DNA of 41,282 bases from Nitrospirales bacterium (GCA_029261275.1 JAJDBR010000245.1:1-41282), one strand, 5' to 3'; counted from the stretch's first letter, positions 19,107 to 41,282 are shown. Numbers and translations: made by a program. Notes: generated by a model not told the origin, from the letters alone.

Positions 19107-20390
19107 CTACAGGGTGACCCAATCCTCCAGGGCGGCATCGAGCTGAACCCCGACTTCCTCTGGCGGTAAAATTTTGACGATCTCGGGGCCTTGGCCATCT
19201 GGTCCCAAGACGGAAAAATTGAAAGGAATGGGTTCAGCTAACGGTTGGTGGGCCGCATCCTGAATGAGCAATATCGTGGGATGAAGAAGATTTTCTCGTG
19301 AATTGGCGGTGACAATACCGCGTTCACCCGTGCTGAGTTCGACTAAGCTGTACGTGGGATAAATCCCGATGAGATTAATAAATTTGCCTACCAATTCTGC
19401 ATCCAATACACCTTTCTTGCCCTGTTGGTATATGGATTGAAGGGCTCCACGCACCGTTTGTGGTTTTCCACTGTGATGGCCACTTAACAGCTCATCATAT
19501 TCATCAACTAGGCGGAGAATGCGACTGGCCGGTTGGATCATAGCCGGATCAATATTTGTGGGATACCCAGACCCATCTAGAGCGACATGATGTTCTCGAA
19601 TCAACGTTTGGACCTGCTCCGAAAGGGTGGATTGTTGCATCAATAGATCGAGCCCGCGTTTGGGATGAGATTGATAAATGCCCAATTCTGAATCAGATAA
19701 TTCATGAAGAGATCGTTGTATCGCTTGAGGAATTTTGGCCAGGCCGGCATCGTGAAGGAGGCCGGCAATAGCCAGGTTTTGGCATTCGGCGTCTGTCAGC
19801 CCGACCCCCCGCCCTAAAAGCACTGATAAGGTACTCACGGCTAATGCATGATCGTAGAGTGCTGGTGAAAACTCTCTAGTACGAATGAGGTGGATATAGG
19901 CTTCTTCATGGTCAAGCGTGTCAGCCAAAATGGATTGGATCACCTGATTGACCTGTTCAACGGCCAGTCCTCCCGTTTTTGATAAGGTCTCCAGAATGTC
20001 CTTCACCCCTTCCAGCATATATAGTCGTGTTTGGGTAATCGAGGTGAGTTCCCCTCCCAAGGATTTTCCTTGGACTTCTTCTGGTAGGTGCTGTATTCGG
20101 GCCTCCTCTGGGGAGATCGAAGCGTTAGCTTTTTCTCGAGGTAAATCGAGCAAAGGCGGGTCGGGTAATTCTATTTGGTGTTCGCTTTTGGTCGAAGTTG
20201 TGTCATCAAGTCCGTGTTCTGTATCGATTGTGATTACTTGGATTCCACAGTGCTGTAGTTTGGTAATGTCCTCAGACGATCGAATCAAGAAACAATGCCT
20301 TAGGAACGGCGTGTCCAACCAGGATTTGTCGATCCCACAGAGATACATACCGACTTTAACCGATGAAATGGGAATGAGTTTTTTTGCCAT
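19107..20390 (-). CDS. HD-GYP domain protein with N-terminal DUF3391-like domain, paralogous to 7109-8365
   Basis: ORF 19107-20573; preferred start at 20390 (MAKKLIPISSVKVGMYLCGIDKSWLDTPFLRH...); 'LLHDAGLAKIP', 'HHVALDGSGYPTN'. Confidence 0.9.
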   Translation of the reverse strand: MAKKLIPISSVKVGMYLCGIDKSWLDTPFLRHCFLIRSSEDITKLQHCGIQVITIDTEHGLDDTTSTKSEHQIELPDPPLLDLPREKANASISPEEARIQHLPEEVQGKSLGGELTSITQTRLYMLEGVKDILETLSKTGGLAVEQVNQVIQSILADTLDHEEAYIHLIRTREFSPALYDHALAVSTLSVLLGRGVGLTDAECQNLAIAGLLHDAGLAKIPQAIQRSLHELSDSELGIYQSHPKRGLDLLMQQSTLSEQVQTLIREHHVALDGSGYPTNIDPAMIQPASRILRLVDEYDELLSGHHSGKPQTVRGALQSIYQQGKKGVLDAELVGKFINLIGIYPTYSLVELSTGERGIVTANSRENLLHPTILLIQDAAHQPLAEPIPFNFSVLGPDGQGPEIVKILPPEEVGVQLDAALEDWVTL

Positions 20391-24003: not shown

Positions 24004-24286
24004 ATCTGTGGTTATTTTCTCTAGGTAATATTTACCTATTTTAGGCTTCGTGTTGATAGACAGCCATCTTACCTGCCCCCTTTATTCCCAGAGTTTCTTT
24101 TACGTCAGATAGCCCAAGTTCCCACAAAAAGAATTCCCCCCCCTCCTCTAAAGTTCTCACAGCAATAACCGACAGTATTGTATACAGATTGGTAAGAGGG
24201 GATGTTGGGATTTGCTTCCGGAATAGACATTGGAGATCTCAAATCATTTCCAACGATTAGGAACCAAGAGGACAACGAGAACTGTT

Positions 24287-25471
24287 ATGAAAACACATCT
24301 TTTATTTATTGGCGCCATGTCATTGTTGGGAACATCATTCTTGTCAACGGGGTATGCGGTAGATAATTCTGAGTATTTGCATTTCACCCGACATCGAGAC
24401 TCAAATGGAAATTTGCTGATGGGGCCGACGCATCATCAGGCTGAGCCATCTGTCATGCAAAAAACTATCATGCCGTCCCAACCCAAGAGTTTTGAGCGGC
24501 GGAGCACCGATTGGGGCATGAGTGTCCAAGAAGTGAAAGAGAATGAACCTGTCCAGTCCTCATGGGAATTGCAGTCACCGGTATTGGCCGATTCTGAGCA
24601 ACGGGTGGCCTATCATACGCAAATCGAAGGGATTGAAGCGGCGTTAACCTATACCTTTTATGAAGATCATTTAGGACAGGCGAAATATGTGTTTGAACCC
24701 CAGCATGCAGATGCAGTGGAATTTGTGAAGGATTTTCACACGGTGGAACATTGGATAAGTCAAAGCTATGGCCCACCTACGTTTGTTCAAGAAATTTGGC
24801 TGGATACGCTTTATCAATATGACAAGAGCTTGTGGGGACAAGCGGTGAAGCGTGGGCATTTGGTGATGGTTGCTGAATGGAAAAACCCTGGCACCAATAT
24901 AGTTCTTGTATTAGACGGAGGCGAAGATACTGTTGGATTAGTTGCTGATTTTAGCAGCTCGACCTTTATGGTGCCGGTGTCGTTGAATTTGCACAATCAA
25001 GAAAAGAATGCCGAAGTGGTGATCGACGAAACACCAATTCAGGAAGGGATTGCTATCGAACCGACAGGAGATTCATTGGGAGAAGATTCGTCTGGAAAAA
25101 ATATGACAAATGAAACCGAGGGTAGTGGGTTACATCATGAAACCAGGGTGAATGCTCCAGGCCTAGAAAATGAAATGGACGAATTAAACGAAATTGAGGA
25201 ATTGCCCAACAACACATTTCCACTAAACGAGCCTCTTAACAAGGAGTTTCCGTTAAGCGAGCCCCTCAATAAGGAATTTCCATATGAAGCCAAGGTGAAT
25301 GCTCCAGGCCTGGAAAGTGGAATGGACGAAATTGAGGAATTGCCCAACAACACATTTCCACTAAATGAGCCTCTTAACAAGGAGTTTCCGTTAAGCGAGC
25401 CCCTCAATAAGGAATTTCCAATTAACAAGTCAGTGGAACCTGAAATGGAATTAGACCCTCAACACCTTTGA
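24287..25471 (+). CDS. Exported hypothetical protein with C-terminal tandem repeats
   Basis: Signal peptide from ATG 24287 (MKTHLLFIGAMSLLGTSFLSTGYA); C-terminal repeats (see repeat feature). Confidence 0.75.
   Translation: MKTHLLFIGAMSLLGTSFLSTGYAVDNSEYLHFTRHRDSNGNLLMGPTHHQAEPSVMQKTIMPSQPKSFERRSTDWGMSVQEVKENEPVQSSWELQSPVLADSEQRVAYHTQIEGIEAALTYTFYEDHLGQAKYVFEPQHADAVEFVKDFHTVEHWISQSYGPPTFVQEIWLDTLYQYDKSLWGQAVKRGHLVMVAEWKNPGTNIVLVLDGGEDTVGLVADFSSSTFMVPVSLNLHNQEKNAEVVIDETPIQEGIAIEPTGDSLGEDSSGKNMTNETEGSGLHHETRVNAPGLENEMDELNEIEELPNNTFPLNEPLNKEFPLSEPLNKEFPYEAKVNAPGLESGMDEIEELPNNTFPLNEPLNKEFPLSEPLNKEFPINKSVEPEMELDPQHL
25145..25422 (+). repeat. In-frame tandem duplication (~140 bp unit) with nested short repeats in C-terminus of 24287-25471
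   Basis: 'agggtgaatgctccaggcct...aaggaatttcca' at 25145 recurs at 25292 with near identity and a 9 bp gap; protein units 'VNAPGLE..MDE(LNE)IEELPNNTFPLNEPLNKEFPLSEPLNKEFP'. Confidence 0.9.
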
Positions 25472-26326: not shown

Positions 26327-26659
26327 CTAGTCCTTTTTCTTGGGTGTGGCAAAGGTGATTTCCGTAGCAACCCAATCTCGATTTTGAGGCAGTCCGTTTT
26401 TTGACACTTCGGCGACCAAGCGATCACCTACTTGTGGGCGGGCCTCTTTCATATGAATGCCATTTTGTTTGAAAATGGTCTGGGGTTGAAAGGCCAGAGA
26501 AACTGAATCGCCTTTAGTCGTTTTTACTACGACATGATCAGCTTCCATCGCGGTCACCGTGCCCATGATATGGGAAGCATCTCCATGCCCCCACGCGAAT
26601 GCCGGAAGAATCAAAAGAGATGCGATAATGAATGTGCGCCACATTGATTGCATTGCCAT
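26327..26659 (-). CDS. Small periplasmic protein, DUF5666-like beta-strand domain
   Basis: Signal peptide 'TFIIASLLILPAFAWG'; 'IMGTVTAMEADHVVVKTTKGDSVSLAF...VGDRLVAEV'. Confidence 0.6.
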   Translation of the reverse strand: MAMQSMWRTFIIASLLILPAFAWGHGDASHIMGTVTAMEADHVVVKTTKGDSVSLAFQPQTIFKQNGIHMKEARPQVGDRLVAEVSKNGLPQNRDWVATEITFATPKKKD

Positions 26660-26677
26660 GCTCCTTAGAAAATCGGA

Positions 26678-27286
26678 TTAATGGTGGTGTGAAGTCGTAG
26701 GGTCCACGTCTTCACCCGATAAGAATTGATCAAGCATTTCTTGCTGTTCTCGTTCAGCTCGAGTTTGAGGATTGTCTTTTTTCATCTCAGCGATTTCTTC
26801 TGGGGAAATGTTCGGTAAATGGCGAATAAAGAGGACCAGCTTCCAGCTTTCCTGATCTTCTTCAGGAGGCCCCTTGCCCCAGGCGGGCATGCCGGTAAAA
26901 CGAATGCCCGAGTGAATCACGTAAAAGAGTTCTCCATCTTGCATCGATTGAATAACTGAATCTCGAAGGTCGGGAACTGGCGGATAAAAATTTGGGCCCA
27001 TGGGGGTTTTTCCGCTTCCATCATTGGCGTGGCACGTGGCGCAATGGTCAGCAAAATGATGCCGGGCTTCTGCTAAAATCTCTGGAGAGAAACCAATTGG
27101 GTTAGACATTTTGAGGAAGTGACTCGGCGTTGCCATGTGGCGAATGAATCGAGCAATTTTGATTTCCCACGCGGGAGGAGTGGCCTTAGCCGTGAAGGTG
27201 CCTGGCAGAAACCACAAGGCAGCCAGGATTCCGCCAATGAGGAGAAGGATGCATATAAAGAATAGCCATTTAATTCGTCGAAACAT
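26678..27286 (-). CDS. Membrane-anchored c-type cytochrome
   Basis: 'FADHCATCHANDGSGKTPMGPNFYPPVPDL' CxxCH haem motif, distal Met 'FTGMPAWG', N-terminal TM. Confidence 0.9.
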   Translation of the reverse strand: MFRRIKWLFFICILLLIGGILAALWFLPGTFTAKATPPAWEIKIARFIRHMATPSHFLKMSNPIGFSPEILAEARHHFADHCATCHANDGSGKTPMGPNFYPPVPDLRDSVIQSMQDGELFYVIHSGIRFTGMPAWGKGPPEEDQESWKLVLFIRHLPNISPEEIAEMKKDNPQTRAEREQQEMLDQFLSGEDVDPTTSHHH

Positions 27287-27457: not shown

Positions 27458-29050
27458 GTGGTTGCTATGAATGAGATATCCGCCACATGGGTCCAGGGAT
27501 TGAAAAATCCCGCATGTTATTCCCATCCTGTTGATCAGGTGAGACTGATCGAAACGCATATTTCTTGGGTGGTATTAACCGGATTGTATGCCTATAAAAT
27601 CAAAAAACCGGTGAAATACTCATTTGTGGATTTTTCAACCCTTGAAAAGCGGCAGTGGTTTTGTGAAGAAGAAATGCGATTGAATCGAAGGTTGGCGGCT
27701 GAAGTATATCTAGAGGTCGTTCCTATCACGGGTTCCCCATCCAATCCTCAAGTTGATGGTCAGGGAACGACGTTTGAATGGGCGGTAAAAATGAAACAAT
27801 TTTCCTCCGAGCAGAAGGTCCATGACCTCTTGGCGAGTGAGGAAAAGGCGGAGAGTCTTATTTTTCCACTGGCTGAGAGATTAGCAATATTTCATGCCAA
27901 TAGTGAAAAGGCTGACGAGGACTCACTCCATGGTACTCCAGTCACGGTATGGCAACCGATGAAAGAATGTCTGCCTGAAATCCCCCTCTCTCTTCTTACG
28001 CAAACTAATCAAGAATATTTGGCCATCATAGACCGATGGGCACAAAAAGAATGGCGGAATTTGTCCGACGTCTTTCTGCGCCGGAAACAGGCGGGTTTTG
28101 TTCGAGAATGTCATGGCGATCTTCATCTCGGCAATATCGCCATGTTCGAAGGAAACGTCTGTGTCTTTGACGCCTTGGAATTTGAACCACGTCTCCGATG
28201 GATTGATGTCATGAGTGAAATTGCGTTTCTGGTGATGGATCTAGAAAAACATAGTCGCCGAGACTTAGCCTTTGGGTTCTTGAATCGTTACTTGGAATGG
28301 ACGGGAGACTACGAGGGCCTAATAGTCTTCCGCTGGTATAAGGTCTATCGGGCGTTGGTGCGAGCAAAAGTGGCTGGATTACGGTTGACCCAGTTGGCCG
28401 GAAATGACACGGAAGAAAAAAGGGCCAAACGCGAACTGGCTGGATATTTGGAACTCGCTCATCGTTTCAGGGCTCGAACCACTCCATCTCTCATCCTCAT
28501 GCATGGGATTTCTGGAACGGGAAAAACAACGGTATCTACAGAAATACTCAAAACAATTGGTGCGGTACGCGTACGATCTGACGTGGAACGAAAGCGACTA
28601 TTTGGAGAACGGTTGGAGTCTAAGGACAAAGATGCTTCAGAGGCGGGACTCTACCGATCAGACATGACAGTGCAGACCTACGATCAATTGCGGGATGTGG
28701 CCCGATTGTTACTGAAGGTGGGGTTCTCTGTTATCGTGGATGCTACCTTTCTTCAACATCAGCAGCGAGAATTATTCAGAGTGTTAGCCAAGGAGCAGGC
28801 ATGTGCTTGGTTCATCGTGGATGTGTTTGCTTCCGCGGCGGTTCTGGCAGAGAGGATAGCGCGGCGGTCTCGTGAAGGTCACGACGCTTCAGATGCTACC
28901 GTTGATGTTATGAAACGACAACAAGAAATCGAAGAGTCTTTTACTCAGGAAGAAGGACCCCATGTGATCAGGGTGGATTCGACCGATTCACAGTCGATTT
29001 TTTCTGCCATCAAGAAGTTAAAGGAATTTACCGAAATTGGAATTGATTGA
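27458..29050 (+). CDS. Bifunctional aminoglycoside phosphotransferase-like / P-loop kinase (COG2187-COG0645 type)
   Basis: 'CHGDLHLGNIAMFEGNVCVFDALEFEPRLRWIDVMSEIAFLVMDLE' plus 'LILMHGISGTGKTTVSTEI', 'VRSDVERKRLFG'. Confidence 0.9.
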   Translation: MVAMNEISATWVQGLKNPACYSHPVDQVRLIETHISWVVLTGLYAYKIKKPVKYSFVDFSTLEKRQWFCEEEMRLNRRLAAEVYLEVVPITGSPSNPQVDGQGTTFEWAVKMKQFSSEQKVHDLLASEEKAESLIFPLAERLAIFHANSEKADEDSLHGTPVTVWQPMKECLPEIPLSLLTQTNQEYLAIIDRWAQKEWRNLSDVFLRRKQAGFVRECHGDLHLGNIAMFEGNVCVFDALEFEPRLRWIDVMSEIAFLVMDLEKHSRRDLAFGFLNRYLEWTGDYEGLIVFRWYKVYRALVRAKVAGLRLTQLAGNDTEEKRAKRELAGYLELAHRFRARTTPSLILMHGISGTGKTTVSTEILKTIGAVRVRSDVERKRLFGERLESKDKDASEAGLYRSDMTVQTYDQLRDVARLLLKVGFSVIVDATFLQHQQRELFRVLAKEQACAWFIVDVFASAAVLAERIARRSREGHDASDATVDVMKRQQEIEESFTQEEGPHVIRVDSTDSQSIFSAIKKLKEFTEIGID

Positions 29051-29260: not shown

Positions 29261-30331
29261 CTATTTCATAAGTTCTTGAATCCTAACGTCGGTTCCTCCT
29301 AAGTCTAAATACTTTTGGTAGTGGTGTTTTGCTTTTTGAAGGTCTGCTTGGTGGAATTCATAAAAGGCTCCCATATTGAATTGCCCCTCTACCGAATTCG
29401 GTTGCAGGGCTAGGCCTTTTTGATACATCTCTTCGGCCTGGTCGATCTGTTTTTCTGCGACCAACAGCACACCCAAATTCACATAGGCTTCCGCGTCGGT
29501 GGGTTTGAGCTGCCTGACTCGTTGAAAATGTTCAATGGCTTGTTGGGGTTGATTTTGCTGTTGATACAGGAATCCTAAATTGTAATGGGCATCTGGATGG
29601 TCCGGAATGATTTGTATGACGTGGGTGTACGCTTCAAGGGCTTGCACGAATTGTTGGCTTTGTTCGAAGATTCGTCCAAGCAAATACCAACCTTCTGAAT
29701 GTTGGGAATCATGTGTGGTGAGACGAGTGAGGAGCTCTTGGGCGCGATCATGTTGCTGGCCTTGCATAGAGTGATACGCCAGATGGAGCAGAGCCTCCGA
29801 AGCTAGGGGCTCTTGATCAAGGACCGTCTCATATCCTTGAATAGCCTTATCAATATTACCTGTCTGATCGAATGATTTTGCCAGTGTGAGCCGAGCTTCC
29901 CAAAATCCTGGGTAAAGAGTGATGGCATGTTGAATTTCCCTTTGTGCCTCTTCCATCTTTTCTTTCTTCAACAACAGTAACCCCAAATCATAATGGGCTT
30001 GGACAAAGGTTGGATTTAGCTGGACGGCCTGCTTGAGGGCCTGGATAGCGGTATTGGCGTTCTGAGTGCGCTGATACTGGACTAACCCCAGAAGATGATG
30101 AGCTTCGGGGTATGATGGAAATTCTGTGATGGATTGTTGGAGTAGAGTTTCAGCCTCCTGGAAATTTTGGTTTTGAATGGCTTTGCCAGCTTGGTGATAG
30201 AGCTCTCCGGCTGGATGACCGAATCCAGGCACTGGCCAAAAGCTGAGGCTGAATACAATGAAAATGCTGATGGACATCAATAATTTTTGAAAAGACGAAG
30301 GCCAATGAAAGTTATTCATAATACACCTCAA
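29261..30331 (-). CDS. Exported TPR-repeat protein (paralogue of 38763-39809)
   Basis: Signal peptide; 8-9 TPR units, e.g. 'PEAHHLLGLVQYQRTQNANTAIQALKQAVQLNPTFVQAHYDLGLLLL'. Confidence 0.85.
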   Translation of the reverse strand: MRCIMNNFHWPSSFQKLLMSISIFIVFSLSFWPVPGFGHPAGELYHQAGKAIQNQNFQEAETLLQQSITEFPSYPEAHHLLGLVQYQRTQNANTAIQALKQAVQLNPTFVQAHYDLGLLLLKKEKMEEAQREIQHAITLYPGFWEARLTLAKSFDQTGNIDKAIQGYETVLDQEPLASEALLHLAYHSMQGQQHDRAQELLTRLTTHDSQHSEGWYLLGRIFEQSQQFVQALEAYTHVIQIIPDHPDAHYNLGFLYQQQNQPQQAIEHFQRVRQLKPTDAEAYVNLGVLLVAEKQIDQAEEMYQKGLALQPNSVEGQFNMGAFYEFHQADLQKAKHHYQKYLDLGGTDVRIQELMK

Positions 30332-30505
30332 GCGATGAATTTCAGGACGATAGAAACAGGAGCGGGTAGATTAGCAACAGTGCCTGGGGTGAGAAAATAG
30401 CAAGTATTTTATGTAGACACCACGCCATAGCGAAAAAAGAAAAGCTCTTTCGTTGAGGTCGTCAGGATTGGTGTTAAAAATCACTCATAGGCTTTCTTTT
30501 AAGAG

Positions 30506-30538
30506 CCAGGGCCTTTTCCAATTCTGGAAAGGCCCTGG
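30506..30538 (-). terminator. Strong inverted repeat / candidate terminator downstream of the TonB-dependent receptor
   Basis: CCAGGGCCTTTTCC-aattct-GGAAAGGCCCTGG, nearly perfect stem between receptor stop (30560) and the TPR gene. Confidence 0.6.
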
Positions 30539-30559
30539 AATGGCATGGGGCAATAGCCT

Positions 30560-32866
30560 TTAGAACAGTCCCAGCGTGACTCCTCCAAAAACAGAGAGGG
30601 GAGGAGCTAGAAGAAATGCTTGCTTAGACGCATCGGCTGTGCTGTCAGACACGATGGCTCCGCTACCCATATACGTTTGATCGAAGAGATTTTCTACCTG
30701 TACATAGGCTTTGAATAACCGAACCCAACCCCATGCAACGTCCTGGGCATAATGGAGATTCACGTTCACCACGGTGGCGGCTTGAGCCTTCAGGGTATTG
30801 GCATTATTCACAAAATAATCGTCAATCCATGAAACCTCAAACCAGCCGCCTAACCCTGAAAGGTGATCATAGGCGGTTCGGAAATTCAACACATGTGGTT
30901 CTACAGCTGGGACATTTTTTCCGTCACGGTCGACCGAGGTGCCGATGCCTCCGACAAGAATAGTGTCGGTGAAATTTGTGAATTTGGCATTGACATAGGT
31001 ATATGCTGCAGAAAGTGTGAGTCCGTCAAGAGGCATCCATTCTGCGGCGACTTCGATTCCGCGGTATTCTGAAGAATCTGCATTGGTAGTAAAGCTTCCT
31101 GTTCCACCGACAACGGATTGTGAAATTAATTCGTCTTTGAAGAAGTTCCAAAATCCAATGAGTTGGAAATTAAAACGCGGATGAAGACGAACTTGGCCTC
31201 CTAGCTCCAAATTGATATTCCGTTCATCATCGAGGTCATTATTGGCACCGGGCAATCCTGTTGGAGAGGTCGTGAGGTTCCCAAAATTTGGAGTACCATA
31301 TCCGCCTGACACACGTGTCCAGTATCGATCATGTTCGTTGGGATGAAATTCGATAGAGACATCTGGGGCAACATTATGAAACTTGCGGTTGGCACTGGCT
31401 TTGCTAGTGACGGTTCCGCTGAAAAATCCAAAATTGACTTGATCGACGGATAAATGGGTTCGCTCGTACCCTAGCCCTGCTGCGATAGTCCATTGAGGAG
31501 CTAAGTCTAATTCTTCGCGGATACGAAATCCAACATTTCTGATGGAACCACGTTGGTTATTTATGGCATTTTGCTTGCTGCCTTTACCATCAGCCAAGTT
31601 GCGGAGATTCGTGGTTTCCGTTTCAAGGTACTCAAAAAATACTCCACCATGACTGCGAAGTGGCATCCCGAAGAAGTTGTACACATTCCGCACATCAGCG
31701 CGCGTTTTCCAATTGGGTTGTACTTGATCTAACGTTATCCCAAATTTTTGATTGATATCTTTATTATCGTAGAGCCCAGAGAGAGAGACCTCGGTGTCGG
31801 GAGTAATTTGATTGGCGTATCGACCACCGATGATGGTTCGGTGGTCACGGCGAGAACGATCATTGGCTTTTGCTCCTGTTCCTGCCTGTTTTGGTTGTGT
31901 TTGGAATTGCGTAAGTGTGAGTCGTTGAGGGGTCAGGACATCCAGGTCATTGTTGGCAGCCTTAAAGAAAAAGGTCTGTTGATCATCAATTTTGAAACGA
32001 AAATTGGCATCGACGGTGGTGGTCGAAAAATCGCTGTGATCTTGATAGCCATCACCTCGTTCATGGCTCACGAAGACGGCAGCGTCCATATGCTTATATT
32101 CTTTTCCAATAGCTGTTCCATATTTTTGATAGCCGTAACTGCCCACGCTGGTGAACGTTTCCACGCCATTGATGTCACTTCCTTTGCGCGTTCGAAAATT
32201 GACGATCCCACCCAGAGCATAGTTGCCATACAACGCAGATGATGCGCCTCGCTCGACATCAATGGCTTTCATAAACCAGGGGTCTTGCAAATCCAAGCGA
32301 GATAGGCCGTCTGATTGGGTGACGTCAAACCCATCTTCAAACACCCGAATCTTCTGAACACCGAATGCTTGTTTCGCCCCAAATCCTCGAATAGCAATAC
32401 TATAATCGCGTGGGCCATTGCGTTTGCGCAGAATGATTCCAGGTTGGCTTTCCAATGACTCCCTGAAATCTTTGGCAGGTTGGTTGTCAATCTGATTGCG
32501 ATTGACTGTTGAACGTGTGATGCCCTGTGGTGCTTGTTGAAGACGAGTGCTAACGACGGAGATTTCATCTAACACTGTTACTTCTTTTTCTTTCAGAACG
32601 GTCTTTGCTGTTTGCGTTGCTGACGAATTATTGGGCGTGGATTCCAGGGATTCAAGCTCGGCTTGAACACGACGCAGTTTCTCTGTGAGTATTTGAAGTT
32701 CCTTCTCTAATGTCTTTCGTTGTTCCAGTAAGGCTTCTTGGTTTACCGAAGAGCCTTCCGAAGTAGCCGGCAGAACTAGAGAAAGACTCATATTGAAGAC
32801 AATGAAGGCTATGCTGATAGGTATGTTGTGACTGACAGATGACATTAACCATTGGCGCATGTTCAC
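30560..32866 (-). CDS. TonB-dependent outer-membrane receptor with N-terminal coiled coil
   Basis: TonB box/plug 'VTVLDEISVVSTRLQQAPQG...DFRESLESQPGIILRKRNGPRDYSIAIRGFG...IDVERGASSALYGNYALGGIVNFRTRKG', C-terminal beta-barrel strands ending in aromatic 'GGVTLGLF'. Confidence 0.95.
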   Translation of the reverse strand: MNMRQWLMSSVSHNIPISIAFIVFNMSLSLVLPATSEGSSVNQEALLEQRKTLEKELQILTEKLRRVQAELESLESTPNNSSATQTAKTVLKEKEVTVLDEISVVSTRLQQAPQGITRSTVNRNQIDNQPAKDFRESLESQPGIILRKRNGPRDYSIAIRGFGAKQAFGVQKIRVFEDGFDVTQSDGLSRLDLQDPWFMKAIDVERGASSALYGNYALGGIVNFRTRKGSDINGVETFTSVGSYGYQKYGTAIGKEYKHMDAAVFVSHERGDGYQDHSDFSTTTVDANFRFKIDDQQTFFFKAANNDLDVLTPQRLTLTQFQTQPKQAGTGAKANDRSRRDHRTIIGGRYANQITPDTEVSLSGLYDNKDINQKFGITLDQVQPNWKTRADVRNVYNFFGMPLRSHGGVFFEYLETETTNLRNLADGKGSKQNAINNQRGSIRNVGFRIREELDLAPQWTIAAGLGYERTHLSVDQVNFGFFSGTVTSKASANRKFHNVAPDVSIEFHPNEHDRYWTRVSGGYGTPNFGNLTTSPTGLPGANNDLDDERNINLELGGQVRLHPRFNFQLIGFWNFFKDELISQSVVGGTGSFTTNADSSEYRGIEVAAEWMPLDGLTLSAAYTYVNAKFTNFTDTILVGGIGTSVDRDGKNVPAVEPHVLNFRTAYDHLSGLGGWFEVSWIDDYFVNNANTLKAQAATVVNVNLHYAQDVAWGWVRLFKAYVQVENLFDQTYMGSGAIVSDSTADASKQAFLLAPPLSVFGGVTLGLF

Positions 32867-33073
32867 TGATGAGTTCTCCTTATGAAATTAATTAGGCGAT
32901 GAATGGTTATCTAGTGGTGTGGTATAAAATATTTTGTATTTGGGCGCGGCTGATGAATGGGCTGGCCCCCATTCTTATTGTGTATACACCAATTAGTTTG
33001 GTGCGTGACTGATTGACTCGCTGAATCACTGAAGATCTCACTGTTGAGTGAAGTGTTGGCAGAGCAAGGATGC

Positions 33074-34339
33074 CTAAGTGTTTGGCCAAGACATCACTTG
33101 AAGGACGGTGTGCCAACCAGGGAAGCGAATTTGCTCTTGCCAGGCTAGGATTGCTTGTCCGTGGGAATTGACGGCTACCGCAGGATGCTTCGATTTTTTC
33201 GTATTCAATTTTTCCGGAGCACTAAACGAGAGTCCGCGGTCCAATGAATAGCTCATCACGACTTCACGCCTGACTGGAGATTGTTCTTCCCAAATCACGA
33301 GAAGGCGGCCTTTGCGATCAACGGCCATTTGCGGGTGATCTGGGAAGGTGCCTTTGGAGACGTTCAGCTGACGTCGAGGGGTAAAGGTTTTTCCTTGATC
33401 ATCTGAATAGGCGAGATAGACGCCTGGAGTATCATCAGGGCCTTCTGTGTACCATGTGACGTAGAGGCGCCCTTGTTGGTCGGTTCCCATGGTCGCAGGT
33501 CGATGAGGGCACCCCTCGAACGCCCAGCGATCATGTCCGACGATGACCGCAGGAGAAAATGTTGCGCCATGATCAGTGGATCGAGTAACGACGGTCTCTC
33601 GAATGTTTTTAGGAAAAACTTTTCGCCAAGCAAGATATACCGTACCATCCGGTGCAGTCGTGGCATGTGTGCGGCAGCAGACACAACTCGTCTCATCAAT
33701 TTTCAGGTTTGGGGAAAGTGTCTGACCCTGGTCTTTCGAAAATGAGGAATAGGTAGCAGGGTCTTTTTCCCCTTCCCTGGCGTCCAGCCACACTATATGG
33801 ATGGAACCATCCTGGCCTACGGTGAGGTGGTCAAAGGAATGGCCGGTCACAGCATTGTCATCGTTGACTTGGATTGGCGGGAGAAATGTCTGTCCACCGT
33901 TAAGCGAGCGGCTTAAAAGGAGGAGGCTGGTAAAGAGTTTTTCTTTTGCGTTTGGATGGGGAGTCGTCCAAGTAAGGTAGACATCATTTTTCTTGCCTAA
34001 GGCCAGTGCTGGAGGTGCATGGAGAGACGCGGCAGGAGTAACGGGAGAATTGAGGTTTATGGGATGAGGAAGTGGTTCCTTTGAGTTGAACGGCGCTTGG
34101 ATATAATAAGTGCTGAGTTTCTTTTGGTTGGCTTCAATCCATGATAAATGAAATATGCCTGTATCAGACAATTGAATGGCAGGTCCTGAGACCGGCTTTG
34201 TGCCATGGTTTAAGCGAATTTTTTCCCCTAATGCGATAGATGAACGTGGCACATTTTGATCGGAATAACTCAATCCAGGGGCGATGAATCCTAGTGAGAG
34301 AAAACAAAGTGTGGCGATATATTTAATTTGGCAAGTCAT
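33074..34339 (-). CDS. Exported BNR/sialidase-like beta-propeller protein with CVCCRTHA motif
   Basis: Asp-box-like repeats 'SLNGGQTFLPP', 'SKDQGQTLSP', 'STDHGATFSPA', 'SDDQGKTFTPR', 'SLDRGLSFSAP'; signal peptide; 'DETSCVCCRTHATT'. Confidence 0.85.
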   Translation of the reverse strand: MTCQIKYIATLCFLSLGFIAPGLSYSDQNVPRSSIALGEKIRLNHGTKPVSGPAIQLSDTGIFHLSWIEANQKKLSTYYIQAPFNSKEPLPHPINLNSPVTPAASLHAPPALALGKKNDVYLTWTTPHPNAKEKLFTSLLLLSRSLNGGQTFLPPIQVNDDNAVTGHSFDHLTVGQDGSIHIVWLDAREGEKDPATYSSFSKDQGQTLSPNLKIDETSCVCCRTHATTAPDGTVYLAWRKVFPKNIRETVVTRSTDHGATFSPAVIVGHDRWAFEGCPHRPATMGTDQQGRLYVTWYTEGPDDTPGVYLAYSDDQGKTFTPRRQLNVSKGTFPDHPQMAVDRKGRLLVIWEEQSPVRREVVMSYSLDRGLSFSAPEKLNTKKSKHPAVAVNSHGQAILAWQEQIRFPGWHTVLQVMSWPNT

Positions 34340-34489
34340 GGCTACCCCCTTGGCCGTGATGGAGTTGAAAGTTTTGCATTTCGTTTTTGAGTAGGAAATA
34401 GAACATAGTAGTGAAACTTATGGTGGACTCTGACTCATGCCTATATTTTCCAGCGTATGCTTCACCATGTTGGTAAAAAGCATGAAAAA

Positions 34490-34534
34490 ACAGGGTGAAG
34501 GCCAAGGAGGTCGATCCAAATGCCTTCACCCTGT
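34490..34534 (-). terminator. Rho-independent terminator of the 34559-35365 gene
   Basis: 13 bp perfect inverted repeat ACAGGGTGAAGGC (34490-34502) / GCCTTCACCCTGT (34522-34534); on the minus strand followed by TTTTTT. Confidence 0.75.
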
Positions 34535-34558
34535 GAGATCCAAGGTCAGGAGGAAGAC

Positions 34559-35365
34559 CTACCTTGGATCATCAATGTCGTCATGTGTGTTCGTCCTTGC
34601 TACTTTTTGAGGCATATGAAAACTTAGTGGGTTTAATGCCTGGTAACTAACCCTTGCCTGTTCTTCAGCTTCAGGATCGAAAAATCCTTCGGACATGCCT
34701 GTTTCATGAAGATAGAGCGGTTGGTGAGGTTTCGGGTCTTTATTGTAAGTTTCGACCATTGAGTGAAACTTCAATCTTCCGGCTTCAATCCGGTCAATTT
34801 CATCGTCGGTCCCATACGTTACAGTTGGTGGATAGGGGCGGCATGAATCAATCGCCGCATTGATAATGGGTTGGAGTTGCAAAAAAGTGTTCAAAGCTTG
34901 AATGGCAATCGGTTGTTGTCTGGAAGGAAGTGTGGACACAAAGGCCCGTCGCGATATACCTGTCGGCCTATTCTCTGTAAAAATGATCGCTCGATCGGTT
35001 CGAAACGCAATTGCCCCATGAAGCAGGGCTCCATTCGAGAGATCGTCCAATGTGATGAAATGAGTATAATCTTTTCGTCGTGCTTCTCCACGATTCTGAG
35101 GGACATATTGTCCAGGAATCCGTTGAATAACCAAGTCACGATGGACAGCGGCTTTAATTCTGATACTTGCTCTTTGATATTGCTTTTTACAGAGGCTTGG
35201 ACTAAACGGTCTAGAATCTAACCTTAGATGAAATACTTCTTCAGCATGAGTGGGGGACGCCATGATTACCAGAAGCATGACGCCTCCAATTCCTGTCGTG
35301 AAAACTCTAATTGTGTTGCGACATCTTTTCAGTATCTTCGTTATCATGGTGATTTCCTTCCCCAC
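34559..35365 (-). CDS. Hypothetical exported protein
   Basis: Signal peptide-like 'VFTTGIGGVMLLVIMASPTHAEE'; co-oriented in TonB locus; no family recognised. Confidence 0.65.
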   Translation of the reverse strand: MGKEITMITKILKRCRNTIRVFTTGIGGVMLLVIMASPTHAEEVFHLRLDSRPFSPSLCKKQYQRASIRIKAAVHRDLVIQRIPGQYVPQNRGEARRKDYTHFITLDDLSNGALLHGAIAFRTDRAIIFTENRPTGISRRAFVSTLPSRQQPIAIQALNTFLQLQPIINAAIDSCRPYPPTVTYGTDDEIDRIEAGRLKFHSMVETYNKDPKPHQPLYLHETGMSEGFFDPEAEEQARVSYQALNPLSFHMPQKVARTNTHDDIDDPR

Positions 35366-35502
35366 ATAATGTCTCAGAATTCCGATTCTGGACCGGCGCG
35401 AAATGAACCTCGGGTGTCTGGATTAGGCGAATCAGAACAGCAAGAACATGTTTAGAGACGAGGTGAAAATGCTGCCATCATCACTGGGTTGCAACAGAAC
35501 GA

Positions 35503-35820
35503 TTATGGGAGAAGAAAAGGAGGACCGCGAGAGGCCGGGTGATGGCTGAAGCCAAGACTTGGGAGTGTTGGGCGAGGAAGGTCAAGAAGAGCAAGAATCT
35601 TCGAAGAATTTTCTACAAAAATTTGAAGAACATGAAGCCCTTGTCCTGCTTGGCAAGACCAGCTACACCAATCTTGCTCATGTGTCTGTTGATCATGCCC
35701 AGCGTGCTCGAGGTGCACAGAAAGGTTTTGTGTCAGGCCAGTACTAACGAAAAGAAAGCTGACCCCTAGGAATAGGCAGAAAAATTTGCGCATGAATGGA
35801 GACTGAGGAAGTAGAGTCAT
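35503..35820 (-). CDS. Small exported His/Cys protein, CxWxC family member A (DUF2946-reminiscent)
   Basis: Signal peptide 'FFCLFLGVSFLFVSTGL', 'HLEHAGHDQQTHEQDWCSWSCQAGQ', C-terminal 'SRGPPFLLP'; motif shared with 36435-36806 and 40701-41003. Confidence 0.7.
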   Translation of the reverse strand: MTLLPQSPFMRKFFCLFLGVSFLFVSTGLTQNLSVHLEHAGHDQQTHEQDWCSWSCQAGQGLHVLQIFVENSSKILALLDLPRPTLPSLGFSHHPASRGPPFLLP

Positions 35821-36000
35821 GTCTAACGAAAATTTGAAATGTAATCCCTAAATATTTTGCTCAACCTAACGGGTTTTCAAAAAACTGTCTACCTACTGCT
35901 GCTTATCAATGCTACACTTTTTATTACCTGTTGATGCTACGCATTTATGCACTTTCCTCTACAGATGAATGCGGTCACTTTCAACACTTCAGGCAAGAAA

Positions 36001-36207
36001 TTATCGCGTGCCAGTGGTGATCGGTTCCCAATAGTCTTTGCGGTTGTGTTCAACCAAGGTGTCAATTGAATCACGGAAGATACGCAAACTCCCTTTTCCG
36101 ATTTTCGTGGCTTTGAGACGGTCTTCTTCTACCCAACGGTAAATGGTCCACCGGCTCACGTTTAACGCCTTGGCGGCTTCGCTGACACGTAACAATTCTT
36201 GATTCAT
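36001..36207 (-). CDS. Excisionase/MerR-type helix-turn-helix DNA-binding protein
   Basis: 'LLRVSEAAKALNVSRWTIYRWVEEDRLKATKIGKGSLRIFRDSID' HTH_17 pattern. Confidence 0.85.
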   Translation of the reverse strand: MNQELLRVSEAAKALNVSRWTIYRWVEEDRLKATKIGKGSLRIFRDSIDTLVEHNRKDYWEPITTGTR

Positions 36208-36434
36208 TGCCTGCCCTCCTTAACACGCGAATAAAAGCGTTCCTCACGTTCATAACAATAACCAAAAGTTTTTCCCCTGAGATGAAATAGGTTCCTGGTT
36301 TCCTGAGCTGACGTTTTGCAGACTCAGGGAGTCGTGTATTAATCCCTAAAGAATCACAATGCAGAGGAAAGGTAATTGTTTCCTTGTCTGTGAATGGTAT
36401 TCATCACAATTGAGAACTGGGGATTGAGAAGGAA

Positions 36435-36806
36435 TCAGAGCAAAGGAGGTCCACGGGGGGTTGCAAAGGAAAAGGGAGAGGGAACTAAAGGAATGGCTAG
36501 GGGGAGTACGATTCTAAGAAGAATGAGAAGGGGAAGTGGAGTAAGGTTTTCTGTTGGCGTTGCCGAAGCGGTGATTTGCCCAACCTGGCATGCCCATACA
36601 CAGAGGATAGAAGTTGATGATTGATGATCCTGATGATGTGAAGGTTGGGGATTGCTTGCGGTTGAAGCACAAAATGTTCCAACCGCTATAAGAGTGAGGT
36701 GAATTCCAAGAAGACCGGCGACCAGAAAGGTGGTGAAGGAAGGCCTGGTGTCTACCCGCTTGAGGGACAGAAATGAATTGAGCTGAGAAGGTCGGTGGAA
36801 GCGCAT
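36435..36806 (-). CDS. Small exported His/Cys protein, CxWxC family member B
   Basis: Hydrophobic N-terminal segment, 'HHQDHQSSTSILCVWACQVGQ', C-terminal 'PRGPPLL'. Confidence 0.65.
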   Translation of the reverse strand: MRFHRPSQLNSFLSLKRVDTRPSFTTFLVAGLLGIHLTLIAVGTFCASTASNPQPSHHQDHQSSTSILCVWACQVGQITASATPTENLTPLPLLILLRIVLPLAIPLVPSPFSFATPRGPPLL

Positions 36807-36825
36807 TGGATTCGTATGGCAAAAA

Positions 36826-37236
36826 TTATTCTGAAGATGACGGTTGTGTTGCGATGCCCATACTGGTGATCCCGCTGAGACGAATGAGATCCATTACCTT
36901 AATGACTCGTCCGTGTGGGACATATTCGTCGGCATTGATGAGTAAAGAAGGATCCGATGATGTTTGTCGAAGGTAGGTTAGTCGTCTTTCGAGTTCTTCT
37001 AGTGTAATGACCTCTTTGTTGTAATAGAGTATGCCTTCTCGAGTCAGCGTAAGGGACACATGCTCGTCGAGGGAATCGGTTGAAGATTCGGCTGTGGGCA
37101 GTGAGACGGGCATACCATGCTGAAGGGTCATGGACAGGGTAGCGATCATGAAAAACACCAGCAAGAAGAACATGGTGTCAATCATGGGAATGATTTCGAT
37201 GCGCGGTTTCTTTTTGGCGGCGGCTGACAGTCTCAT
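36826..37236 (-). CDS. exbD: Biopolymer transport protein ExbD
   Basis: 'IEIIPMIDTMFFLLVFFMIATLSM', 'YYNKEVITLEELERRLTYL', 'LINADEYVPHGRVIKVMDLIRLSGI'. Confidence 0.9.
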   Translation of the reverse strand: MRLSAAAKKKPRIEIIPMIDTMFFLLVFFMIATLSMTLQHGMPVSLPTAESSTDSLDEHVSLTLTREGILYYNKEVITLEELERRLTYLRQTSSDPSLLINADEYVPHGRVIKVMDLIRLSGITSMGIATQPSSSE

Positions 37237-37844
37237 AGATTGGTGGGCTTGATCAGGTGTTGGAGCATGGCCTCGGTTTTCGTGGCAAAATGTTCGATCT
37301 TTTCGGTTTCTTGTTCCATTCGCGCGACGAAAAAATTGTAGGGGATTAGGGTGGTCACCGCGACAACAATACCCGCTGCGGTGCAGATTAGGGCTTCCGC
37401 CACTCCTCCGGTCACCGCATGGGGATTACCTAAGCCAGTTTGGGACATGATGCCAAATGAATCAATCATGCCGATGATCGTTCCCAATAATCCCAAGAGT
37501 GGCCCGAGGGTGATTACGGTATCCAATAGGGGAAGGCCGCGTTTCATCTTGGTAAGTTCGACAATGGCGGCAGCTTCCATGGCTTGGCTTGGATAGTTGG
37601 TGCGTTGGTGAACTCCTGTGGATATGACTCGAAGCACAGGGCTGGGTTGAGGCTCTGCGACGGCGAGTGCATCGGTGAATTTTTCTTGTTCGATAAGCGA
37701 GAGCATTTTCGGTGCCAAACGACTGGCTTGGAAATTTCTAAAATAGATGAATCGTTCAATGCTGACGGTAAGTGCGAGAAGAGAACAACCTATGATGGGA
37801 ATCATCATCCATCCCCCGCTCATGAGTAAGTTAAGAAATTTCAT
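37233..37844 (-). CDS. exbB: Biopolymer transport protein ExbB (MotA/TolQ/ExbB family)
   Basis: 'LPLLDTVITLGPLLGLLGTIIGMIDSFG', 'VTGGVAEALICTAAGIVVAVTTLIPYNFF'; start 37844 (MKFLNLLMSGG); overlaps exbD by 4 nt. Confidence 0.9.
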   Translation of the reverse strand: MKFLNLLMSGGWMMIPIIGCSLLALTVSIERFIYFRNFQASRLAPKMLSLIEQEKFTDALAVAEPQPSPVLRVISTGVHQRTNYPSQAMEAAAIVELTKMKRGLPLLDTVITLGPLLGLLGTIIGMIDSFGIMSQTGLGNPHAVTGGVAEALICTAAGIVVAVTTLIPYNFFVARMEQETEKIEHFATKTEAMLQHLIKPTNL

Positions 37845-37869
37845 CGGTGTACCTTCTCTGTGGGAGTCG

Positions 37870-38766
37870 TTAACTATTGAGGTCAAAGTTTATGGGGATA
37901 TCAACCCATTTTGCGATGGGGATGTTCCCATCTTTGGCTGGTTGGAAGATCCAGTTTTTCACGGCGGCTTGTGCCGCCTGATCCAATGTTGGATGTCCAC
38001 AGCTTTTACGAATTGAGACTTGGCTGGGAATGCCGTTTGTGTCGATGAGGGTACGAATAATGACTGTTCCTTCCCATTCAGATTCTCGTGCCACTCGTGG
38101 ATAAATCGGCTTGGATGATGACATGATCGTTGGGCGAGTCATCGTCGTTCCTGAATGAGCTGGTGGTGTGGCAGTGAGCCTCGGTGGTGCTGTCAATGTC
38201 GGTGGAGCGGGAAGTGACCGAGCTCCTGAATGTTTGTTTGTCACTATCGGCAACGGGGGCAAGCTCCGATTCTTAGACTTGGGGCGACGATTCAGAGTCG
38301 GCAAGGAATGTGCTGTCTGTTGGCTGTGTGGCTGCTCTCGCATTTTCATCATCGCTCTGGCTTTCATGGCTTCTGAGGCTCGGATATCTTTCAGGATTGA
38401 TTTCTCTGGAATAGGTGGGGGCAATAGGGACTGTTTCATGGGCGGTGAGGGCGTCAGGTTGGTCTGTAACGGAGGTGATGGAGCCTGTGACCGATTGAGT
38501 GGTGTCGGAGGGGCCATAGCCGGAGGCGCAGATTCCCGCATAATGGTGTGCGGATGTTGGGACGACGTGGGAGGGGGTGGCGTCTGAAGGATATCCGGCG
38601 CTGGCAATAATCTAACCTGAACCGTTGGGGGTTCATCCTTTACAATAGTGGAGTGTGGCATAGAGGCCCAGCTGGCCAGGAGCAAACCATGCACCAGAAG
38701 ACTGCCTAAAGCGCTAAGCACAAAAATTTGAGTATCGGAGTGGTGATCAGGAAATGTCGACGTCAC
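37870..38766 (-). CDS. tonB: TonB family energy-transducing protein (canonical, Pro-rich)
   Basis: N-terminal TM 'LSALGSLLVHGLLLASWASM' containing SxxxH, Pro-rich linker, C-terminal 'YPRVARESEWEGTVIIRTLIDTNGIPSQVSIRKSCGHPTLDQAAQAAVKNWIFQPAKDG'. Confidence 0.9.
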   Translation of the reverse strand: MTSTFPDHHSDTQIFVLSALGSLLVHGLLLASWASMPHSTIVKDEPPTVQVRLLPAPDILQTPPPPTSSQHPHTIMRESAPPAMAPPTPLNRSQAPSPPLQTNLTPSPPMKQSLLPPPIPEKSILKDIRASEAMKARAMMKMREQPHSQQTAHSLPTLNRRPKSKNRSLPPLPIVTNKHSGARSLPAPPTLTAPPRLTATPPAHSGTTMTRPTIMSSSKPIYPRVARESEWEGTVIIRTLIDTNGIPSQVSIRKSCGHPTLDQAAQAAVKNWIFQPAKDGNIPIAKWVDIPINFDLNS

Positions 38767-39809
38767 GACCCAACCCGTTTCAGGAGTTTGGCAATTCGCT
38801 CATCCTGTCCCCCAAGCTTCACATATTCTTTGTAATATTCCAGAGCTTTTTCTGAGTCATTAAGGTGAAATTCATAGAGCAGCCCCAAATTGTAATGGGC
38901 TTCGGATAAATCTGGGTTGAGGGCTAATGCGGCCCGGTACTGCTCTTCTGCCAACTTCAGTTGGGAAAGGGCAGCATAGACCACGCCTAAGTTAATATGG
39001 GCTTCGGAATTTTCCTGATCCAGCCGGAGGACATTTTTGAACGCCTCGGCTGCTTCTGTGTATTGTTCTTGTTGTTGGTACAACATTCCCAGATTGAAAT
39101 ACGGGTCGACGAGTTGTGGGTGGAGATCGATCACCCGTTGATAGGCGGCGATAGCTTTTTGGGTCTGGTCCGACTGCTGCGCCAATGCTCCTATCATGAG
39201 CCACCCATTCAAATGTTCAGGATTTTGGGCCGTCAATTGTTCAACATACGGCTGTGCCCGCTCGGGCTTGTCCTGCTGTAGGAACCAAAAGGCTAGGCCG
39301 TACAGTGCGTCAAGGTAATGAGGATCCAATTCTAAGACCTTCTGATGTGCTTCTATGGCCTGGGTGGCATCTTGACGTTGATCAAAAAGCGCAGCGAGTG
39401 CCGTCCAGCCTTCCAGATAATGCGGGTAGATCACTGAGGCCTGCCGAAAAGCCTTTTCCGCTTGTTCGAATTGGAATTGATCTTGATAGACAAACCCTAA
39501 ATCCACATACGCTTGAGCAAACGAGGGATAAGCATTGACGGCTTTTTTCAGTGCGACAATGGCCTGTTCCGGTAGGTTGAGTTGGGTCAAGACTAAGCCC
39601 AATAGGTGATGCGCTTCAGCATAGTTAGGATAGAGATGGATCGCATGCTCCAAGGGAGCTTTGGCGGATGCCCACTGATTGTGCTGATAGGCGGTATAGG
39701 CCTGAGAGAAGAGGTCTTGAGCCTCTCCGGCATGACTGTTTGTTTTAGGGCTGAATAGTAAGATGATGGTATAAAACAAGAAAAGATAGGTATTTCGATT
39801 AGAATTCAT
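38763..39809 (-). CDS. Exported TPR-repeat protein (paralogue of 29261-30331)
   Basis: Signal peptide; ~8-9 TPR units; overlaps tonB start by 4 nt; 'EAHHLLGLVLTQLNLPEQAIVALKKAVNAYPSFAQAYVDLGFVY'. Confidence 0.85.
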   Translation of the reverse strand: MNSNRNTYLFLFYTIILLFSPKTNSHAGEAQDLFSQAYTAYQHNQWASAKAPLEHAIHLYPNYAEAHHLLGLVLTQLNLPEQAIVALKKAVNAYPSFAQAYVDLGFVYQDQFQFEQAEKAFRQASVIYPHYLEGWTALAALFDQRQDATQAIEAHQKVLELDPHYLDALYGLAFWFLQQDKPERAQPYVEQLTAQNPEHLNGWLMIGALAQQSDQTQKAIAAYQRVIDLHPQLVDPYFNLGMLYQQQEQYTEAAEAFKNVLRLDQENSEAHINLGVVYAALSQLKLAEEQYRAALALNPDLSEAHYNLGLLYEFHLNDSEKALEYYKEYVKLGGQDERIAKLLKRVGS

Positions 39810-39840
39810 CTTTCCGTCCTTTTGCGTGGGTCGAAAGCAT

Positions 39841-40446
39841 TTACTGTACTAAATCAAATTGAATAGGAATATTGACGGTGGCGGCCACCGGAAAACCACC
39901 ATTCCTTGCTGATTGAAAAGTCCAGAGTGTTGCAGCCTTGATGGCATGGTCATCCAGGAGTGGATAGCCAGAACTTTTGTGGATACTGCCAGATTCTACT
40001 TTCCCGTTGGGCGCAATCTTCAACCGCACGATGACCCGACCGTGCCACCCCTGTTCACGAGCTCGTCTCGGGTATGGTGGGTGTTCTGTTTTCAATGGCT
40101 TAACCGGAGTATGGAGATTTGTGGTTTTGGCTGTGTGATCCAAAAGGATGCGCGACTGAGGAGGGATTGGCTTCATGATTTTCAGTTTTGGAAGAATCAA
40201 GTGGGTAGTGAGGCTCAGGGGATCATGTGTTGGCAATATAGGAATTGGAAATTTTAGGTCCCGAGGTGCCTGTTTAATCACTGCCCCTGTAATTTCTATT
40301 ACCTCTAATGTTTCAATCTCTTCCATGGCAGGCTCCATGCTGTGAGCGACGACCAGAGGGGAAAGAATCAATATGGCTGTTAACCAGAAGCTACCCTGAT
40401 ATGATACCCTTAGTGGAGAGAATATGAGAAATTTAATTATGGCCAT
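39841..40446 (-). CDS. Second TonB C-terminal-domain protein, atypical N-terminus
   Basis: 'HPPYPRRAREQGWHGRVIVRLKIAPNGKVESGSIHKSSGYPLLDDHAIKAATLWTFQSARNGGFPVAATVNIPIQF'; start 40446 preferred within ORF ending 40488. Confidence 0.85.
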   Translation of the reverse strand: MAIIKFLIFSPLRVSYQGSFWLTAILILSPLVVAHSMEPAMEEIETLEVIEITGAVIKQAPRDLKFPIPILPTHDPLSLTTHLILPKLKIMKPIPPQSRILLDHTAKTTNLHTPVKPLKTEHPPYPRRAREQGWHGRVIVRLKIAPNGKVESGSIHKSSGYPLLDDHAIKAATLWTFQSARNGGFPVAATVNIPIQFDLVQ

Positions 40447-40700
40447 TACACCCTGTTCTTTACTATAGGACTGTATCTTTCTCTGCAATCTTATCAGGTT
40501 CTAGGGCCCCGATCTTTGGGAACTATAGCTAGCTCACCCTGAAAAATCACGGGAATGGTTCCCCTGAATGATCCAATACCTCATGAGTGAAGTCACCAAG
40601 CCAGATCCCCTTGGCTTAGCTAGGCTACGAAATTTTCGCAACCAGCAGCTGGTCTAAGAGGTGCGTCGGGAGTACGGTAAAGGATAAATTTTCACAAAGG

Positions 40701-41003
40701 TCAGATCGGGGGAGCTCGGCTGGGAAGGAAAATCTGACGAGGAGCCTTGATCAATGAAGGGGATAGTGGCTGTAAAATGTCGAGTGGTGAAATTTCCGGC
40801 GAGAAAACTTGCGCCTCAGTAGATAGGGCTTGTGCAGCTGTGCACATCCAAGCACAAATACCGGTGGTGTGGGTTTGCGAGGAATGATGCTGATGATCAA
40901 TGGCATGCAAGGCCATATCAGCCTCTAGAGAACCCATGACAAAGATGAGCACCATCGTGAAGGCCAGTGAGAGAGATTTGAGAAATGGCATCATCGAATG
41001 CAA
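40701..41003 (-). CDS. Small exported His/Cys protein, CxWxC family member C
   Basis: Signal/TM 'SLAFTMVLIFVMGSL', 'DHQHHSSQTHTTGICAWMCTAAQ', C-terminal 'SRAPPI'. Confidence 0.65.
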   Translation of the reverse strand: MHSMMPFLKSLSLAFTMVLIFVMGSLEADMALHAIDHQHHSSQTHTTGICAWMCTAAQALSTEAQVFSPEISPLDILQPLSPSLIKAPRQIFLPSRAPPI

Positions 41004-41282
41004 TAAAGTGCGTTGACCAAGTACATTATCTAAATCTAGGGAAAAAATCGTATGAAACTCTGCAATATCCTGTCAAGGCAATGAAAGGAATAGAGAGGGC
41101 AACTCCTCAACCTCAATTTGTTCTGGTTTCTTGACATTATCGGCTGGCTCGAGTTGATTCCCATCGATATTTCGGTATACTAAGGACATTCAAGAGAGCA
41201 GAAGGCTTTCCAGCCAACAATCCCTATCTCTTATAGCGTCGTTCCACATCCATAAACTTTTTCTAAGGTAGCGTGGGCTTAT

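Follow-up and report, generated by a model that had tools for sequence, protein, structure and literature searches.

The stretch of DNA analyzed here (the window) is a single contig of 41,282 nucleotides from a Nitrospirales draft genome (3.8 Mb in 283 contigs, ~90% complete), in which 13 minus-strand genes spanning 29.3-41.0 kb bring together the parts of a TonB-dependent uptake system and three small ORFs, each bearing a CxWxC motif. What such small ORFs do among the genes of an outer-membrane uptake system, and which substrate that system serves, are the questions this locus raises.

Organization of the locus

An earlier, sequence-only reading had listed these minus-strand genes, and its account of their order, strand and kind held up in full, every gene being found where it had been placed. 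The features are given below in order along the minus strand, where spacing denotes the number of residues from the start of CxWxC to the R of RAPP or RGPP and the three small ORFs are named as the putative leaders for which we argue in the next section.

41047-41076, minus strand: promoter-like sequence, TTGACA-18-TACGAT (10/12), just upstream of uC
40701-41003, minus strand: putative leader uC (class I), H-rich, with an export signal; CAWMC at 40842-40856, RAPP at 40707-40718, spacing 46
39841-40488, minus strand: TonB2, 215 aa (Pfam TonB_C, 8e-23), starting 212 nt past uC
38763-39809, minus strand: TPR2, an exported TPR protein
37870-38766, minus strand: TonB, 298 aa, 15.8% Pro, with a TonB_C domain
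37233-37886, minus strand: ExbB; no other ExbB belonging to a TonB system was found in the genome
36826-37236, minus strand: ExbD (Pfam ExbD, 6e-31)
36435-36806, minus strand: putative leader uB (class II); CVWAC at 36588-36602, RGPP at 36444-36455, spacing 49, with an extra Cys
36001-36207, minus strand: HTH_17 DNA-binding protein (Pfam HTH_17, 5e-12), 227 nt past uB
35503-35820, minus strand: putative leader uA (class I); CSWSC at 35653-35667, RGPP at 35518-35529, spacing 46
34559-35365, minus strand: orphan exported protein HYP, 137 nt past uA
34483-34535, minus strand: intrinsic terminator in the HYP/BNR gap, a 13-bp stem and T run (dG -30.4 kcal/mol, z -5.0)
33074-34339, minus strand: exported BNR beta-propeller protein (Pfam BNR_2, 1e-11)
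30560-32866, minus strand: TonB-dependent receptor with an N-terminal extension (plug, E 3e-17; barrel, E 3e-30)
29261-30331, minus strand: TPR1, an exported TPR protein

Pfam searches found TonB_C, ExbB, ExbD and TonB-dependent receptor domains all to be present, as in a TonB-ExbBD uptake system. The gene pairs TPR2/TonB, TonB/ExbB and ExbB/ExbD overlap by 4, 17 and 4 nt, respectively; the sequence-only reading had put these overlaps at 4 nt or nearly so and taken them to indicate a transcription unit. The strong terminator between HYP and BNR splits the locus, which therefore comprises at least two units, uC-TonB2-TPR2-TonB-ExbB-ExbD-uB-HTH-uA-HYP and BNR-receptor-TPR1. Promoter and terminator scans of the region returned matches no commoner than by chance; the HYP terminator, whose loop length kept it out of the scan results, was recovered by RNA folding. 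Downstream of uC, uB and uA lie long gaps of 212, 227 and 137 nt, beyond which stand TonB2-TPR2-TonB-ExbB-ExbD, the HTH_17 gene and the orphan HYP, respectively, and uB begins 19 nt past the exbD stop codon, which makes it an internal leader. The HTH_17 protein is found at the same position, with 68-85% identity, in most relatives that carry this segment.

Conserved anatomy of the small CxWxC ORFs

All three small ORFs carry an export signal and end within one to four residues of a RAPP or RGPP motif (SRAPPI in uC, where a single residue follows, PRGPPLL in uB and SRGPPFLLP in uA), and three such ORFs are observed where 0.01 are expected per dinucleotide-shuffled window. The sequence-only reading had recognized the three ORFs, which are not products of chance, but overlooked both the long gaps 3' of them and their terminal RAPP/RGPP. 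Using a search pattern of a Cys motif followed by a terminal R[AG]PP, in which CxxC and spacings of 30-65 were also permitted, we recovered 62 leaders from 25 relative loci and the window; every one has CxxxC (62/62), 59 have CxWxC, and the only spacings are 46, 47, 48 and 49. A further set of 80 named loci, which were located via the BNR protein and overlap partly with the first set (some genomes being in both), contains 183 leaders, all of them on the BNR strand (183/183) and 182 of them with a spacing of 46, 47 or 49. Class I leaders (spacing 46; uA and uC) share the invariant residues H33, H39, H44, C49, W51, C53, R95, P97 and P98, and class II leaders (spacing 47-49; uB) have a third invariant Cys. 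In the alignments of both classes, the stretch between CxWxC and RAPP is fixed in length and free in sequence, a pattern that suits an arrest peptide. Counts of substitutions at the three codon positions (243/198/578 and 37/19/86) point to coding selection on the leader ORFs, and a hydrophobic N-terminal segment, as judged by hydropathy only, is present in 99% of 182 leaders.

Small ORFs of this general design have been described in other bacteria. CruR of Bordetella pertussis (bp2923, DUF2946), which heads operons for TonB-dependent receptors, senses copper through a CXXC motif (C90, C93) and arrests the ribosome at RAPP (R139), with 49 residues between C90 and R139; copper relieves this arrest, upon which Rho terminates transcription and the downstream TonB-dependent transporter is turned off (PMC9426467). 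CutF of Rhodobacter capsulatus (cutFOG) combines a Sec signal, a CxxxC motif and a proline-rich C-terminus, and switches on a multicopper oxidase when copper is in excess, with a stem-loop hiding the start site (PMC9973294). Passages of a third study describe RAPP and RGPP as motifs able to cause arrest in most contexts, the arrest being most stable with RGPP, and report that CruR arrests in vitro (PMC12992588). The proteins treated in those passages (ApdA, ApdP, CruR and a Streptomyces set) are, like ours, products of small ORFs of secretory type that carry RAPP/RGPP close to the C-terminus and have TonB- and Cu-related genes downstream, and the same passages contain no Nitrospirota family, fixed CxWxC spacing or arrays.

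Among the closest parallels is the CruR-crtA/bfrG-PepSY_TM operon (PMC9426467, PMC12914433), with which the Nitrospirales loci share an exported-type small ORF, a Cys motif, a terminal RAPP at 49, a long gap after the leader, a TonB-dependent receptor operon and a C>G stretch in the leader. Unlike CruR with its CXXC, the Nitrospirales leaders have CxWxC and two spacing classes (46 and 47/49), occur several to a locus with at least one of them internal (uB, which is not in the first operon position), also precede TonB-ExbBD and an HTH gene, and score below the PF11162 cut-off; in addition, no OprC-type receptor was found in this genome. They resemble CutF in the CxxxC motif, proline-rich C-terminus and Sec signal, and differ from it in that the three gaps of the window lack unusual structure and the genes downstream serve uptake. 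By analogy with these systems, the small ORFs look like self-stalling leader peptides that would sense a metal, most likely copper, during their own synthesis.

Their signal-like N-terminus and His/Cys-rich mature part would also suit secreted metal-binding proteins, such as periplasmic chaperones, that work in uptake and bind metal after export, and the sequence-only reading had indeed counted them among the components of the uptake machine. Given that only length is conserved between CxWxC and RAPP, that RAPP/RGPP lies so close to the stop codon in the window, that the leaders stand ahead of other genes, on the same strand and with gaps, and that the CruR product escaped detection by proteomics (PMC9426467), we regard a chaperone role as highly improbable and rejected it on the conservation pattern; arrest leaders are the better fit to that pattern and to the fixed CxWxC-to-RAPP/RGPP spacing.

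A class I profile matches 115 of the 296 Nitrospirota genomes sampled, 107 from the same order and 8 from elsewhere in the class; among the genomes listed from that sample, none of the same order is without a match and none outside the class has one. DUF2946 (PF11162) is the Pfam family that matches most members, 22 of 48, weakly (best, 3.7e-5), and it matched none of 21 Nitrospirota genomes. The scores of uB (19.6 bits) and uC (16.2 bits) are both under its curated cut-off of 23.7 and uA has no match, which counts against a copper leader and is also why family-based annotation misses these ORFs. The published CruR survey, which relied on the same profile, found Proteobacteria and a few Planctomycetes, Firmicutes and Deinococcus (PMC9426467), and a RAPP-motif survey counts many phyla in bulk in the passages concerned (PMC12992588). 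What is new here are the individual members of the family, the class of mechanism being already known.

Downstream genes and the proposed copper control

Across relatives, the gene headed by a class II leader encodes a TonB-dependent receptor 55 times, and class I leaders head a 380-aa gene (32; the cluster includes porin-like proteins), a TonB gene (23), a TlpA/AhpC-TSA gene (10), a second BNR gene (10) or the orphan HYP (7); simple linkage was used for the clustering, which makes all of these counts approximate. A leader lies directly upstream of the receptor in 60 of the 63 loci where BNR is followed by a receptor no more than 3 kb away, and the loci of N. moscoviensis and N. defluvii have the same leaders (L144, L178). 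In the sister loci L122 and L134, a class II leader separates BNR from the receptor; when compared with them, the corresponding interval of the window (32867-33073) holds neither a class II leader nor a relic of one. The BNR-receptor-TPR1 unit of this genome thus lies behind a terminator and lacks its own leader, which counts against the copper-leader reading. A long open frame ends within 150 nt upstream of 127 of 175 leaders, some of these frames being spurious in G+C-rich genomes, and this suggests that internal leaders may be common in relatives.

Other leaders were seen beside these. The genome itself has a fourth leader, of class I, on contig C271 (L109:3683-3994), which heads a two-gene unit encoding a 387-aa protein without a Pfam match and a 268-aa CarboxypepD_reg protein; other Nitrospirales have the same unit downstream of class I leaders too. 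A third leader form, FVCxTCF...CHHG...WAC...RGPP, is present in N. defluvii (L119:319-750 and 5115-5540), where it stands ahead of genes for a FoxA/FhuA-like receptor and PepSY_TM, an order resembling the published CruR-CrtA-PepSY_TM arrangement, and two more copies occur in a relative's locus (L136:15553-15960 and 19802-20209).

From sequence and analogy together, we consider it probable that the locus is a TonB system for metal uptake, most likely of copper, under several copper-sensing arrest leaders. As inferred from CruR and CutF, the ribosome would stall at RAPP/RGPP during translation of the leader, and when copper is scarce the stall would shield the transcript from Rho so that the downstream uptake genes are made. 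Copper would bind the nascent CxWxC and flanking His residues, 46-49 residues from the arrest site, and relieve the stall, whereupon Rho would terminate transcription and shut uptake off. The receptor would import copper or a copper chelate, energized by TonB-ExbBD, and the BNR propeller, with its invariant set of four Cys and two His, is a candidate exported copper-handling protein. The sequence-only reading had proposed dedicated acquisition of a metal, possibly copper; both the TonB uptake locus and the guess of copper gain indirect support.

The leader ends are C-rich, G-poor and rut-like, with a mean percentile of 91 relative to the same loci and 44% of them above the 95th, and uB, with a C>G ratio of 8.25, exceeds the 99.9th percentile (5.9); part of this C-richness may come from the Pro/Ser/Thr-rich composition of the leaders. 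No unusual RNA structure was detected in the three post-leader gaps (folding z of 0.4, 1.2 and -0.5 versus shuffles), and on this ground a CutF-type stem-loop over the downstream Shine-Dalgarno sequence was rejected. Because the leader ends are C>G-rich and the gaps without unusual structure, the sequence favors a Rho-type control over the stem-loop control of CutF. CutF and CruR act in opposite directions, and the sign of control can therefore not be read from sequence. That copper instead stabilizes the stall and induces the downstream genes, as in CutF, would agree with the CxxxC motif, which is that of CutF and not the CXXC of CruR, and with the export signal in nearly all leaders. We nonetheless judge it unlikely in view of the downstream TonB, ExbBD and receptor genes, which are uptake genes like the copper-repressed bfrG/CrtA, and of the three gaps devoid of an unusual stem-loop.

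A different signal must also be considered, be it Zn, Ni/Co, the redox state of the Cys pair or, in a SecM-like manner, Sec export, with the locus importing something other than copper. His-only CutF-like proteins precede the Ni/Co genes HupE/UreJ (PMC9973294), leader-like ORFs in L119 and L137 are followed by FhuA/FoxA-like receptors, and RAPP arrest peptides also monitor Sec, according to passages of PMC12992588. Yet the Cys pair is present in 62 of 62 leaders of the aligned set, and it is the Cys-bearing CutF-like proteins that precede copper genes (PMC9973294). The neighbors seen here, namely TonB-dependent receptor, TlpA/AhpC-TSA and PepSY_TM (L119), match the published CruR gene set, AhpC-TSA being part of the CruR/CrtA sets as well (PMC9426467, PMC12914433), and no sec or yidC genes were seen in the main downstream clusters. 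On this evidence, we think a non-copper signal improbable.

Three MotA/ExbB-type proteins are encoded in this genome. One is the ExbB of the window; from gene order and sequence start, the others were assigned as TolQ, which sits among Tol-Pal-type genes (L202), and MotA, whose cluster is flagellar (L203). With these two so assigned, uC heads the only TonB-ExbBD found in the draft; the draft being ~90% complete, a second copy could have been missed. Three such proteins are likewise present in two genomes of the genus that are closed or nearly so, and from matching scores and lengths we infer that the other two are TolQ and MotA there too. This genome has four TonB-dependent receptors. With uB starting just past exbD, the leaders from uC to HYP would act one after another, and we raise as a tentative and rather doubtful extension of the copper-leader reading that they form sequential gates in one transcript (uC for TonB-ExbBD, uB for HTH, uA for the orphan), with the copper level setting how much of the sole TonB energizer is supplied and hence all TonB-dependent import in the genus.

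Copper availability shapes nitrifier communities. Should copper-sensing leaders operate as proposed, Nitrospirales in general would have a copper-controlled TonB uptake regulon missed by family-based annotation, nascent-chain copper sensing would extend to another phylum, arrest leaders could be arrayed and act inside operons, and copper might control the sole TonB motor in the genus. A 2026 paper credits PcoB/CopB outer-membrane copper uptake almost exclusively to comammox Nitrospira (PMC13374858).

The receptor, the BNR protein and adjacent genes

The nearest solved relatives of the receptor are YncD/PqqU (6v81, 9c4o; E 3e-33), and generic siderophore-receptor models match it too, as would be expected of a commonplace TonB uptake locus of siderophore or PQQ type to which the small ORFs were unrelated. 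Against the PqqU equivalog NF041535, however, the receptor scores 186 of 1200 bits, far below the cut-off, and such a locus would leave the 60/63 association of leader and receptor unexplained; we therefore hold this to be very unlikely. Unlike YncD/PqqU, the receptor has an N-terminal extension and would be leader-controlled in relatives.

Observations on the receptors also count against the copper reading. An OprC/NosA-type copper receptor was rejected, there being no TIGR01778 match in this genome at E 1e-10, as was a conserved His/Met/Cys copper site, no such residue being invariant in 53 receptors or in the 47 at ≥40% identity, and the receptor of the window has no Cys at all. CrtA copper receptors, whose loci have cruR and in some cases also TonB/ExbBD, likewise lack conserved Cys/Met (PMC12914433), so receptor composition neither supports nor excludes copper.

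The AlphaFold2 model of the BNR protein is a confident beta-propeller (mean pLDDT 87.7). As regards a sialidase, its structural matches amount to generic propeller similarity (sialidase/lectin-like, TM 0.5-0.6, 10-18% identity), and no significant sequence match was found in the PDB. In a 39-sequence alignment that includes Nitrospinota, H167, C219, C221, C222, C277 and H279 are invariant, forming H167 and the motifs CxCC (219-222) and CPH (277-279). Going by strand order in the model, they occupy positions immediately ahead of strands in three successive blades, ~58 residues from one to the next, and may therefore come together as a metal site. The orphan HYP has no relative in Pfam, NCBIfam, PHROG or the PDB, and its model is of low confidence (pLDDT 62).

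The sequence-only reading had made its case depend in part on whether this neighborhood is conserved outside the genome. It is conserved well beyond it, recurring throughout Nitrospirales, and the combination of BNR, receptor and ExbBD extends to Nitrospinota, so the reading stands on that point. In the Nitrospinota loci L197-L200, BNR adjoins receptor, ExbB and ExbD (with TonB in one locus), and a pattern search of these loci found no CxWxC/RAPP leaders. The BNR family is thus common to two phyla, both of which contain nitrite oxidizers.

Outside the locus, the window encodes a protein with a repeated PLNEPLNKEFPLSEPLNKEFP tail and no Pfam match (24230-25471) and, on the opposite strand, an APH-like kinase joined to an AAA_33 ATPase domain (27458-29050). 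At 26327-27286, a 110-aa exported HGDASH protein with a weak DUF5666 match, perhaps CusF-like, adjoins a cytochrome c and an Slp lipoprotein, and this set is kept beside the locus in sister genomes.
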